From Arthrobacter sp. MN05-02 (GTDB lineage: Bacteria > Actinomycetota > Actinomycetes > Actinomycetales > Micrococcaceae), in the NCBI GenBank assembly GCA_004001285.1, contig AP018697.1, positions 3,100,001 through 3,164,000 of the forward strand: DNA of 64,000 nucleotides. Direction: 5' to 3'. Positions 10,801-30,540 of the stretch are shown piece by piece. How positions within the stretch are numbered: position 1 is the first letter of the stretch; the number at the start of each line of letters is the position of its first letter. Both the position numbers and the translations under genes were made by a program. The notes below the pieces were generated by a model. It saw nothing but the letters and a program-made list of their open reading frames with translations. It had not been told where the DNA came from and did no database searches.

Positions 10801-11118
10801 ATGGCCTGGATCGTCCTCGTCGTCTCCGGAGTCCTCGAAGCCGTGTGGTGGGCCACAGCGCTCGGCAAGTCGGAGGGCTTCAGCAGACTCGCGCCCACAC
10901 TCGTGTTCGGCGTCGCCATCGTCGCGAGCATGGCCGGCCTGGCCTACGCCATGCGGACCCTGCCCGTCGGAACGGCCTACGCCGTCTGGGTGGGGATCGG
11001 CGCGGCCCTCACCGTCGTCTATGCGATGGCCACCGGCACCGAAGCTGCCTCGCTGCTCAAGATCGTGTTCCTGCTCATGATCGTCGGAGGCGTCATCGGG
11101 CTGAAGCTGAGCCACTAG
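10801..11118 (+). CDS. sugE: SMR-family guanidinium exporter (SugE/Gdx type)
   Basis: A 105-residue protein with four transmembrane helices and the SMR catalytic glutamate at E13 (VVSGVLEAVWWATALGKSEGF, read in two parts: VVSGVLEAVWW and ATALGKSEGF). Helix 3-4 motifs are GTAYAVWVGIGAALTV and LLMIVGGVIGLKLS. The W-A-x-A-L-G-K-S-E-G-F stretch after E13 fits the Gdx (guanidinium/H+ antiporter) subtype better than EmrE. The guanidine-III riboswitch directly upstream strongly supports guanidinium export. It is monocistronic and ends at an intrinsic terminator. Confidence 0.92.
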   Translation: MAWIVLVVSGVLEAVWWATALGKSEGFSRLAPTLVFGVAIVASMAGLAYAMRTLPVGTAYAVWVGIGAALTVVYAMATGTEAASLLKIVFLLMIVGGVIGLKLSH

Positions 11119-28212: not shown

Positions 28213-28884
28213 CTACAGGGCGATCAGGGCTTCGATGATGTCGTACGTCTCCGTGCGCGTCGTGTAGTCCACGCGGACGTCGATCAGGCGGATGGTGCCC
28301 GTGGCGTCGGCGACGACCACCGTGGGGAACGGGATGGCCGCGGTGCGGTCCATGTTGGTGCCCGCGACATCGATGCCCAGGGCGGCGCGTGCCGCCTCGG
28401 ACTCCGGACTGGGCACCGTCACGATCCCGAGGCGCGAGGCGAGGGCGTTACCCTCGTCCGAGTACAGCTCGAAGCGCAGTCCTGCGGCGCGCGCGGCCGC
28501 GACGGCGGTCTCGGGGGTCTGGGGGCTGATCGCGATGAGGCGAGTCCCGAACGCCTCGACGACGGGGCGGAGTTCGCGCTGGTACGTCTTCAGCGCGATA
28601 CTGCAGTACGGACACCACGATCCGCGGTAGAACACCAGGATGGCCGCCGCGGCCCCGAGCACCTCCGCCAGATGCACCCGGCGGCCGTGCTCGTCGTGCA
28701 GGACGGCCGCGGGGAGCGCGTCGCCCACGCGTGCCGTCCCCGGTGGGATCCCAGCGCTTCGGAGATCCTCCTGCTCGCGGGCGAAGACCGCGGCGAGGGC
28801 AGGGCCCACCTGCGCCTCGAAGGTCGGCCTGTACTCGTCGATCTGGAACGCAATGGTGTTCGTGAACGCCGGTCTCTGCTTCAT
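28213..28884 (-). CDS. Peroxiredoxin-like (AhpC/TSA) protein
   Basis: A 223-residue thioredoxin-fold protein. The redox motif is FYRGSWCPYCSIALKTYQRE with WCPYC, followed by AISPQTPETAV and the cis-proline region IPFPTVVVADATGTIR. The long N-terminal helix (about 1-50) is typical of this bacterial peroxiredoxin-like family. It likely reduces peroxides using two cysteines. GAGGGGGA lies 4 bases before the ATG. It is divergent from the riboswitch-controlled GH26-like gene. Confidence 0.85.
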   Translation of the reverse strand: MKQRPAFTNTIAFQIDEYRPTFEAQVGPALAAVFAREQEDLRSAGIPPGTARVGDALPAAVLHDEHGRRVHLAEVLGAAAAILVFYRGSWCPYCSIALKTYQRELRPVVEAFGTRLIAISPQTPETAVAAARAAGLRFELYSDEGNALASRLGIVTVPSPESEAARAALGIDVAGTNMDRTAAIPFPTVVVADATGTIRLIDVRVDYTTRTETYDIIEALIAL

Positions 28885-28935
28885 CTGTCCCCCTCACCAA
28901 CACTGCGGGTGCCTCGATCCCGCAGCAGGACCCAT

Positions 28936-28951
28936 TGTGGTGCACGTCACC
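28936..28951 (+). promoter_or_regulatory. Possible CRP/GlxR-type site upstream of the c-di-GMP riboswitch
   Basis: TGTGGTGCACGTCACC matches the actinobacterial GlxR/CRP consensus TGTGANNTANNTCACA at 9 of 12 defined positions. It lies about 250 bp upstream of the riboswitch in a 396-bp gene-free stretch (28885-29280). Two strong GC-rich hairpins (about 29142-29170 and 29177-29190) also lie between it and the riboswitch. Confidence 0.35.
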
Positions 28952-29188
28952 GGGAATTCCCAGCGCACCTGTCCGTCCACGTCATAGTCGGCCCTTCCCG
29001 CCATCGCGGCGCAGCGAGGACGGAGGCGGGTCCCACGCGTGCCGGAGAGCGATCGGGACGTGCTGCGGAAGACCTGTAGGAATCCTCTGGCATCCTTCAG
29101 GTGCTCCGCCCCCGCCCGACGACGACCTCCGGGACAATGGTGGAGGAGCCCCGCCTCGGCGGGGACCTCCGGCGCCCGGGCGACCGCC

Positions 29189-29263
29189 CGGCGACAACGG
29201 CAAACCCGGCGCGAGCCGGGGACGCAAAGCCACGGGGCCCCTGCGGTCAGCCGGGCTACCGAA
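29189..29263 (+). promoter_or_regulatory. Cyclic-di-GMP-I (GEMM) riboswitch
   Basis: The RNA shows the GEMM-I core in order: GGCAAACC; a 6-bp hairpin capped by the GNRA loop GCGA (29205-29220); GGACGCAAAGCC at 29219-29230; a GC-rich stem; and the closing block GTCAGCCGGGCTACCGAA. This is the same layout as the Vibrio Vc2 c-di-GMP aptamer. It ends 17 bp before the start codon of the GH26-like gene, so it probably controls translation or a nearby terminator decision. Confidence 0.9.
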
Positions 29264-29280
29264 CCAGCTAGGTGCCGACC

Positions 29281-30540
29281 ATGACTCCAGCCGCGACTCC
29301 AGCCGCCGCTCCCCCTCCCCCGGCCGCTTCCGCACGGGCCACCGCCCACCGGCTCCCCCTCCTCCTCGCCGTGATCTCGGTCCTGCTGTTCGGGCTGACC
29401 CCTCCCCCCGCGCAGGCCGCGGCGACGATCACACTGGGCAGCGTCTCCGGTGCACTCGGCACGTCCGTCTCCGTCTCGGGTGCGGGGTTCCCGAAACGGA
29501 CCAAGGGCACCGTCGTCGCAGGAACCGCCCGGGTGGCGGTGACCACGACCGCCGGTGGCACCTTCCAGGCGTCGATCGTGATGCCCGCCGCCCCGGGCAC
29601 CGTGACCGTCACCGCGACGGCCGGAAGCGCGGTCGCGACCGCCCGCTTCACCGTCGTCGAGCCCACCCCCGCGCCGGGCGGCACCGCGAAGGCGATCCGG
29701 TTCGGCGTGGGCACCAATGGCGGACCGGCTGCCGGTGCGGAACTGGACGAGGTGACGGCCCTCGCCGGTGAGGCGCCCTCGATCGTCCTGTCGTACAAGG
29801 ACTTCAACCAGCCCGCGCCCATCGCCGAACTCGATGCCGTCCGAGCGAGGGGAGCCGAGACCCTCCTGACCTGGGAGCCCTGGACCTGGGGAGGTGGCAC
29901 CGCGCAGCCCGCCTACTCGCTGGACCGCATCGCCGCAGGCGACTTCGACGCCTACCTGCGGGAATGGGGCACAGCCCTGGGCCGGTGGGGCCAGCCGGTG
30001 TACCTCCGCTTCGCCCACGAGATGAACGGCAACTGGTACCCCTGGGCGGAAGGGGTCAACGGCACCGGGACGGGCGACTACGTCGCCGCCTACCAGCACG
30101 TGCACGACGTCGTCGCGTCGACCGGCGCGACCAACATCAGCTGGGTCTGGAACCCGAACGTGCCCTACTGGGGCTCCGTCCCCCTCGACGGGCTCTACCC
30201 GGGGAGCGGATACGTCGACGTCGTGGCACTCGACGGCTACAACTGGGGCACCTCCCCGTCGGGGGGCAGCTGGCAGGAACCCGAGGCGATCTTCGGCGAG
30301 GGGATCGCGCAGCTCCGCCGGATCGCTCCGGGAAAGCCCGTTCTGATCGCCGAGACCGCGTCCTCGGAGATCGGCGGATCGAAGCCCCAGTGGATCACGA
30401 GCCTGTTCGGCTACCTCTCCGCCCAGCCCGACGTCGTCGCCGTCGTCTGGTTCCACATCGCCAAGGAGGCCGACTGGCGCATCGACAGCACGGCGGCGTC
30501 AGCCGACGCCTTCGTGGCGGCGCTCGCCGCCCGGCGCTGA
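29281..30540 (+). CDS. Secreted GH26-like glycoside hydrolase under c-di-GMP riboswitch
   Basis: A 419-residue exported protein. A signal peptide ends at AQA (about 46). Residues about 48-125 form an immunoglobulin-like (IPT/TIG-type) domain, then a Pro-rich linker, then a clan-A hydrolase domain. Its acid/base is E247 in RFAHEMNGNWYPW and its nucleophile E358 in VLIAETASS. VWNPNVPYW and ALDGYNWG also match GH26. It likely cleaves an exopolysaccharide. The c-di-GMP-I riboswitch 17 bp upstream ties it to a biofilm or motility switch. GTG at 29272 is an alternative start. The last 42 bp overlap the convergent Nei-type gene. Confidence 0.85.
   Translation: MTPAATPAAAPPPPAASARATAHRLPLLLAVISVLLFGLTPPPAQAAATITLGSVSGALGTSVSVSGAGFPKRTKGTVVAGTARVAVTTTAGGTFQASIVMPAAPGTVTVTATAGSAVATARFTVVEPTPAPGGTAKAIRFGVGTNGGPAAGAELDEVTALAGEAPSIVLSYKDFNQPAPIAELDAVRARGAETLLTWEPWTWGGGTAQPAYSLDRIAAGDFDAYLREWGTALGRWGQPVYLRFAHEMNGNWYPWAEGVNGTGTGDYVAAYQHVHDVVASTGATNISWVWNPNVPYWGSVPLDGLYPGSGYVDVVALDGYNWGTSPSGGSWQEPEAIFGEGIAQLRRIAPGKPVLIAETASSEIGGSKPQWITSLFGYLSAQPDVVAVVWFHIAKEADWRIDSTAASADAFVAALAARR

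Follow-up and report, generated by a model that had tools for sequence, protein, structure and literature searches.

The riboswitch and the hydrolase gene

The window, the whole 64,000-nt stretch of Arthrobacter sp. MN05-02 DNA that we analyzed, contains a c-di-GMP-I aptamer (29190..29264, + strand) followed by a gene for a putatively exported hydrolase of 419 aa (29281..30540, +). A cmscan search of the whole window gave a match to RF03167 (c-di-GMP-I-GGC) at 29190-29264 that covered model positions 1-80 of 80 and scored 65.6 bits against a gathering score of 59 (E 3e-13). The preliminary description had placed a GEMM-I core before the hydrolase gene and proposed a check with the Rfam c-di-GMP-I model; that model (RF01051) scored 59.8 bits at the same positions against a cut-off of 35, and the core proved to be real, with GGCAAACC at 29199-29206, GGACGCAAAGCC at 29220-29231 and a GNRA hairpin whose P2 loop is GCGA (29211-29214). 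The gap to the gene is short, as had been described, although it measures 16 nt from the 3' end of the aptamer to the ATG (29281) rather than 17 bp. The window RNA belongs to an established class, the c-di-GMP-I riboswitches. Elsewhere in the window, a guanidine-III riboswitch (RF01763, 10724-10791, +, 63.4 bits) is separated by 9 nt from the SMR-type transporter ORF that follows it (10801-11118), which we take to be SugE/Gdx-like; guanidine-III riboswitches with SMR-type transporters are an ordinary, known pairing.

The equivalents of the ligand-contacting bases in the window are G 29199, A 29226 and C 29259, which we take to correspond to G20, A47 and C92 in the Vc2 numbering. From its consensus line (GACGCGAA) and the family name, we read RF03167 as having a G at the position of Vc2 A47, which presumably stacks between the two ligand guanines. 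Since the best-scoring family is this variant (65.6 bits versus 59.8 bits for RF01051), the window RNA might sense another ligand; however, the window has A where the consensus line has G, as do 59 of the 60 aligned family sites (the exception, L077, has G) and all 24 order-level loci. The G20 and C92 equivalents are G and C in 60/60 family sites (alignment A2), and the A-for-G change at position 20 that marks the 3',3'-cGAMP variant of GEMM is thus absent from the window and from these sites. GGDEF is also present in every one of the 38 genus genomes, and we regard a different ligand as very unlikely. According to two reports, A47 is conserved and required for c-di-GMP binding (PMC9049102) and the G20A form binds cGAMP as well (PMC7288161). 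With canonical bases at these contacts, the window RNA would be expected to bind c-di-GMP, which is its likely ligand.

The hydrolase matched Pfam GH26 (PF02156) at 43.5 bits (cut-off 20.2, E 3.5e-11), and its AlphaFold2 model (mean pLDDT 81.7) has a beta-sandwich N-terminal to the barrel. It had been described as an exported, two-domain enzyme, immunoglobulin-like plus GH26-like; Pfam bears out the GH26 part, and the AlphaFold2 strands bear out a TIG/Ig-like sandwich at residues 49-126 (29425..29658, +), a region in which Pfam gave no match on the window protein. PF01833 was found in 5 of 120 homologues, among the matches listed. The N-terminus has a hydrophobic helix and an AQA-AA junction, from which we infer export.

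Glu247 (30019..30021, +) and Glu358 (30352..30354, +) are invariant in 60 aligned homologues and correspond to the HE and IAE motifs of CtLic26A, respectively; we take them to be the catalytic acid/base and the catalytic nucleophile. CtLic26A, a lichenase of C. thermocellum (PDB 2bv9 and others), is the closest solved relative, and the hydrolase is closer to the lichenase than to mannanases in both sequence and fold. Unlike CtLic26A, the window enzyme is predicted to be exported, has a TIG-like domain and lies under an RNA switch. Several sources name homologues "beta-mannanase", a class that sequence and fold do not support, and others call them just "glycoside hydrolase family 26". The proposal of RNA-level control over a secreted glycan hydrolase was right in kind, but its substrate needs correction to that of the lichenase type; judging from the model, the enzyme probably cuts mixed-linkage beta-glucan. 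The nearest named relatives by hydrolase are A. agilis 4041, A. cheniae, Arthrobacter sp. B1805 and A. bussei, in agreement with the "Arthrobacter-like" host of the preliminary description. The same genome encodes another GH26 homologue that is more distantly related (G000:C1:1058961-1059818; 53% identity, 324.5 bits) and has neither of the genome's riboswitch matches nearby.

Architecture of the leader

A candidate -10 element of the hydrolase transcript, GACAAT, lies at 29133..29138 (+). It represents a motif, [GA]A[ACGT][AG]AT[GA], that 15 of 21 GH26-type sites carry 54-59 nt 5' of the aptamer, compared with a mean of 0.6 and a maximum of 5 in letter-shuffled windows; no strict sigma-70 promoter was found in 28880-29300. 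A CCTTCG box stands 91-107 nt 5' of the aptamer in 10 of the 21 sites (letter-shuffled mean 0.9, maximum 5) and is a possible activator site; the window has only CCTTCA near that position (approximately 29083-29100).

In GH26 leaders, a putative 5' stem-loop, H1, stands 3' of the -10-like motif. In the window, H1 (GGAGG..CCCCGC-CUCG-GCGGGG..CCUCC, 29142..29170, +) lies in a 45-nt segment with a folding energy of -26.5 kcal/mol (z -2.77). The mean z of this segment was -1.12 in 20 GH26-type leaders, -1.54 in seven GH16-like leaders and +0.13 in 16 of 22 response-regulator leaders. The stability of the window's whole leader is not unusual (z -0.86), which counts against the switch proposed below.

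A further hairpin, at 29173..29193 (+; arms 29173-29181 and 29186-29193, loop 29182-29185), contains the 5' strand of aptamer helix P1 in its 3' arm and is referred to here as the anti-P1 hairpin. Across 60 sequences, its seven pairs showed 43 both-sided changes (shuffled mean 14.4, 0/500 as high) that involved all seven pairs (16/500 as high), and the inner four pairs showed 24 (shuffled mean 3.9, 0/500 as high) that involved all four (34/500 as high), although these shuffle controls overstate covariation because the sequences are related. The seven pairs could form in 78.8% of cells, compared with at most 54.3% when slid. P1 itself showed no covariation. The predicted probability that the P1 strand resides in the hairpin was 0.99 in the window and 0.63 with a shuffled flank; over the 60 sequences, which are not independent, the means were 0.64 and 0.52 (Wilcoxon 6e-4), and the probability exceeded 0.5 in 41 sequences and was 0.5 or lower in 19. 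P1 and the anti-P1 hairpin are mutually exclusive, which is the basis of the switch that we propose.

An SD-like AGGTG (29270..29274, +) follows 5 nt 3' of the aptamer, and AG-rich stretches occur at the SD position in rows of alignment A1 as well. At 60 of the 61 sites, which precede unrelated genes, an ATG is found 11-21 nt 3' of the aptamer, and no terminator-like site was detected in 28880-29300. Sequestration of the SD by the P3 strand (GGACC with AGGUC) was considered and rejected; 82% of cells pair, but the covariation was not above that of shuffles (353/500 as high). The window RNA thus shares with c-di-GMP-I (GEMM-I; RF01051 and RF03167) the full aptamer, the contact bases and scores above both cut-offs, and differs in its covarying 5' anti-P1 hairpin, in a P1 of only about 3 bp, and in combining an SD 5 nt 3' of the aptamer, no terminator found and many glycoside hydrolase targets.

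Distribution and target genes

The riboswitch was searched for in 395 genomes of the family with strict filters, which may miss weak sites. The search yielded 63 places, spread over 43 genomes. Two of these, with the lowest scores (27.6 and 27.9 bits), lacked the core and were judged to be chance, leaving 61 convincing sites in 41 genomes; 49 of the sites exceeded the cut-off, and the other 12 fell short of it (34.2-58.6 bits) yet had the core. The riboswitch was found in 32 of the 38 genomes of the genus and not in the remaining six. The MN05-02 genome has two, the window copy and G000:C1:3019531-3019605.

The GH26 hydrolase is encoded in 92 of the 395 family genomes (E 1e-30), including 23 of the genus. 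Nineteen of these 23 have the aptamer directly 5' of the gene, counting G278 (34.2 bits, RF03167), and G130 has a degenerate aptamer; an adjoining aptamer is lacking in G285, G356 and G342, the last of which has a masked stretch behind its aptamer and its GH26 gene elsewhere. Among the 69 GH26 genomes outside the genus, the pair occurs only in G078. When the best 80 of 241 named GH26 loci were examined, a riboswitch match lay directly upstream in 13, all from records named Arthrobacter; 12 matches scored 86.8-98.2 bits, values that are high partly by construction because the model was built from overlapping sequences, and one was degenerate (35.6 bits, A. agilis DSM 20550). In a tree of 81 GH26 proteins built by a quick method, three changes of the riboswitch label were needed (shuffled mean 13.2), two of them forced by well-supported branches. 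The riboswitch may have been gained upstream of GH26 once, with losses, or twice.

The aptamer of A. agilis DSM 20550 stands ahead of an open GH26 frame, and control is therefore dispensable in this strain. The decayed aptamers of DSM 20550 and G130 (L145:2879-2951 and L098:1382-1454) have lost the core GACGCAAAGCC; G130 has the same sequence as DSM 20550, and the two represent a natural loss of the switch. Degenerate copies such as those of DSM 20550 (35.6 bits with model R1) and G278 (34.2 bits with RF03167) raise the question of whether the window aptamer is itself a decaying relict, or lies outside the transcript, and has no effect. We find this scarcely credible, since the window copy is complete, above the cut-off and has all contact bases, the aptamer-gene pair is kept in 19 of the 23 genus genomes that hold the GH26 gene, and a -10-like motif is conserved 5' of the aptamer.

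The gene behind the riboswitch encodes a response regulator at 22 of the 61 sites, a GH26 protein at 20, a GH16-like protein at seven, an unknown small exported-looking protein at three, and a GH5, a GGDEF-EAL and an ice-binding-like protein at one each. The remaining six were other cases, including the masked site L016, which begins like the GH26 gene of the window, and a Flp-pilin-like start of 36 residues at a contig end that was below the Pfam cut-off. Glycoside hydrolases of three families thus stand behind 28 of the 61 sites. Pfam domains were taken from ten representatives of the targets. The GGDEF-EAL, ice-binding-like, GH5 cellulase and Flp-pilin-like targets fit c-di-GMP and thereby support a c-di-GMP switch.

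We kept the label "GH16-like" for the second hydrolase family. Three members gave no Pfam GH16 match, and the family profile had no match in PDB at E 0.001. In favor of GH16, a few sources give this label to homologues. A single-sequence phmmer search with one member (L088) found a 1,3-1,4-beta-glucanase at E 0.0011. The AlphaFold2 model of a homologue (P0199), with a mean pLDDT of only 71, gave Bacillus beta-glucanases in the first four Foldseek rows (E 3e-8 to 7e-7), three of them labelled 1,3-1,4, and the E, D and E of the ExDxxE motif were invariant in 40 homologues. If the GH16-like assignment holds, the same RNA control serves two unrelated folds whose nearest structures are lichenase-like, which provides a concrete substrate prediction.

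The second riboswitch of the MN05-02 genome precedes a 42-codon leader ORF and then a gene for an OmpR-type response regulator (G000:C1:3019531-3020623; L041:6001-7093), with the stop of the leader ORF overlapping the regulator start by 8 nt (ATGAATAG). Leader ORFs of this kind, 32-54 codons long, are present in 20 of the 22 regulator sites and extend 8 or 4 nt into the regulator gene; in the other two (L087 and L047), the regulator is directly behind the aptamer. The leader peptides look unconserved, and translational coupling of the leader ORF and the regulator therefore seems likely. In 18 of 20 regulator sites with a leader ORF, an extended -10 lies exactly 30 nt 5' of the aptamer (letter-shuffled mean 0.005), such that the regulator RNAs would begin at the anti-P1 hairpin.

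Among the 24 new order-level loci, eight have the same aptamer directly before a BldC-like regulator (L120, L123, L126, L129, L133, L134, L138 and L139), which matched PDB 6ama and 6amk, entries that we take to be BldC, at E 8e-25 and 2e-24; an RNA link from c-di-GMP to bldC is possible. In six further order-level loci (L121, L125, L136, L137, L140 and L141), the aptamer precedes short ORFs (43-58 residues) that resemble one another at their starts (MDQ/MEQ/MDT) and ends.

Mode of control and biological role

No intrinsic terminator was found in 28880-29300 and the SD adjoins the aptamer, features that point to a translational riboswitch; control is thus probably exerted at the translational level. 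This proposal is supported by RSnlpC of C. glutamicum, which is described as an apparently translational actinobacterial dinucleotide riboswitch for a cell-wall hydrolase (PMC9960051); unlike the window RNA, however, RSnlpC responds to c-di-AMP through another aptamer and serves a peptidase rather than a glucanase. Class I switches of C. difficile use transcription termination, and neither of the two of V. cholerae does (PMC6366702). We put the probability that the window RNA is a translational c-di-GMP-I riboswitch in the leader of a single lichenase-type GH26 gene, a figure that leaves the sign of the response aside, at roughly 0.7.

The arrangement suggests an anti-P1 switch beside the ribosome site. 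During synthesis of the leader, the upstream hairpin (29173-29193) would capture the 5' strand of P1. Binding of c-di-GMP would allow the aptamer to close P1 and displace the outer half of the hairpin, so that a closed RNA fold held by the ligand would lie 5 nt from the SD. If this closed form hinders 30S binding, high c-di-GMP would lower and low c-di-GMP would raise production of the glucanase, which would cut mixed-linkage beta-glucan of a self-made matrix or of plant or microbial material.

We slightly favor this OFF response. The preference is slight because folding is silent on whether the aptamer opens or closes the SD: over 60 sequences, the mean unpaired probability of the SD was 0.41 when the RNA folded freely and 0.45 with P2/P3 forced and P1 not forced, and this difference was not usable for assigning a sign. 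The main rival, in which c-di-GMP turns on glucanase translation in attached cells in the manner of V. cholerae Vc1-gbpA, falls somewhat short of even odds in our estimation. The small rise in SD openness is in its direction, and the pilin-like and ice-binding-like genes that share this RNA should be on in sessile cells; Vc1 acts positively according to PMC4744006, and PMC6366702 describes B. thuringiensis Bc2, also of class I, as an ON switch and the two class I switches of V. cholerae as working in opposite directions. However, a stable fold 5 nt from the SD would rather impede ribosomes, and the latter source reports that the seven functional class I switches of C. difficile are OFF switches and that zmpI, which encodes a secreted protease, is negatively regulated.

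Precedents of the same kind are known. Like the window RNA, Vc1-gbpA places a class I c-di-GMP RNA before a gene whose product binds polysaccharide outside the cell; in contrast, the gbpA leader is 225-244 nt long, the present start lies 16 nt behind the aptamer, and the gbpA product is an attachment factor rather than a glycoside hydrolase (PMC4744006). The target of the OFF riboswitch of C. difficile zmpI, also of class I, is likewise an enzyme with its site of action outside the cell, where it releases surface proteins, but that enzyme is a protease and not a glycosidase (PMC6366702). In the open-licence literature, we found no c-di-GMP riboswitch reported for Arthrobacter and none linked with bldC. 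The pairing of a c-di-GMP riboswitch with a glycoside hydrolase or lichenase, which had been suspected to be undescribed, was not found in the excerpted texts among the matches listed there. What is apparently new is the regulon, the anti-P1 hairpin and the likely coupling to a leader ORF.

The enzyme may serve nutrition or attack on plant cell walls instead of matrix turnover, with the riboswitch only tying it to surface life; we give this about an even chance. Its closest solved relatives are lichenases, a GH5 cellulase lies behind the same RNA in one genome, and no PilZ domain was found that would mark a c-di-GMP-activated synthase of that type. However, the matrix of Rhizobium etli contains mixed-linkage glucan as a polymer activated by c-di-GMP (PMC9495663), and the cell's own matrix as substrate is compatible with all the evidence presented here.

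The MN05-02 genome has seven GGDEF regions, and each of the 38 genus genomes has at least one. PilZ was found in none of the 38, and neither PilZ nor MshEN was found in the MN05-02 genome; the PilZ and MshEN models each detected their domains in 5 of 14 control genomes. Among PilZ, MshEN and riboswitches, the three kinds of effector that were sought, only the riboswitch was found. We tentatively suggest, as a possibility rather than an expectation, that c-di-GMP in Arthrobacter acts mainly via RNA and not via PilZ. Its output would be a small regulon of riboswitches that have a 5' anti-P1 hairpin of their own, and the targets would be two secreted lichenases of unrelated structure (GH26 and GH16-like) together with a response regulator, the latter reached via a short leader ORF with a stop overlapping the next start; c-di-GMP would in this way set mixed-linkage beta-glucan turnover around the cell.

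Most of what is known of c-di-GMP output in Actinobacteria concerns Streptomyces proteins, BldD among them (PMC4151990, PMC9530166). The genus described here combines GGDEF in 38/38 genomes and PilZ in 0/38 with a recurrent c-di-GMP RNA, the commonest targets of which are glycoside hydrolases and one response regulator. This would constitute a compact, testable regulon in soil bacteria in which RNA-level control links a signal of surface life to glucan cutting; the RNA is short, with an alternative hairpin that is open to compensatory changes.
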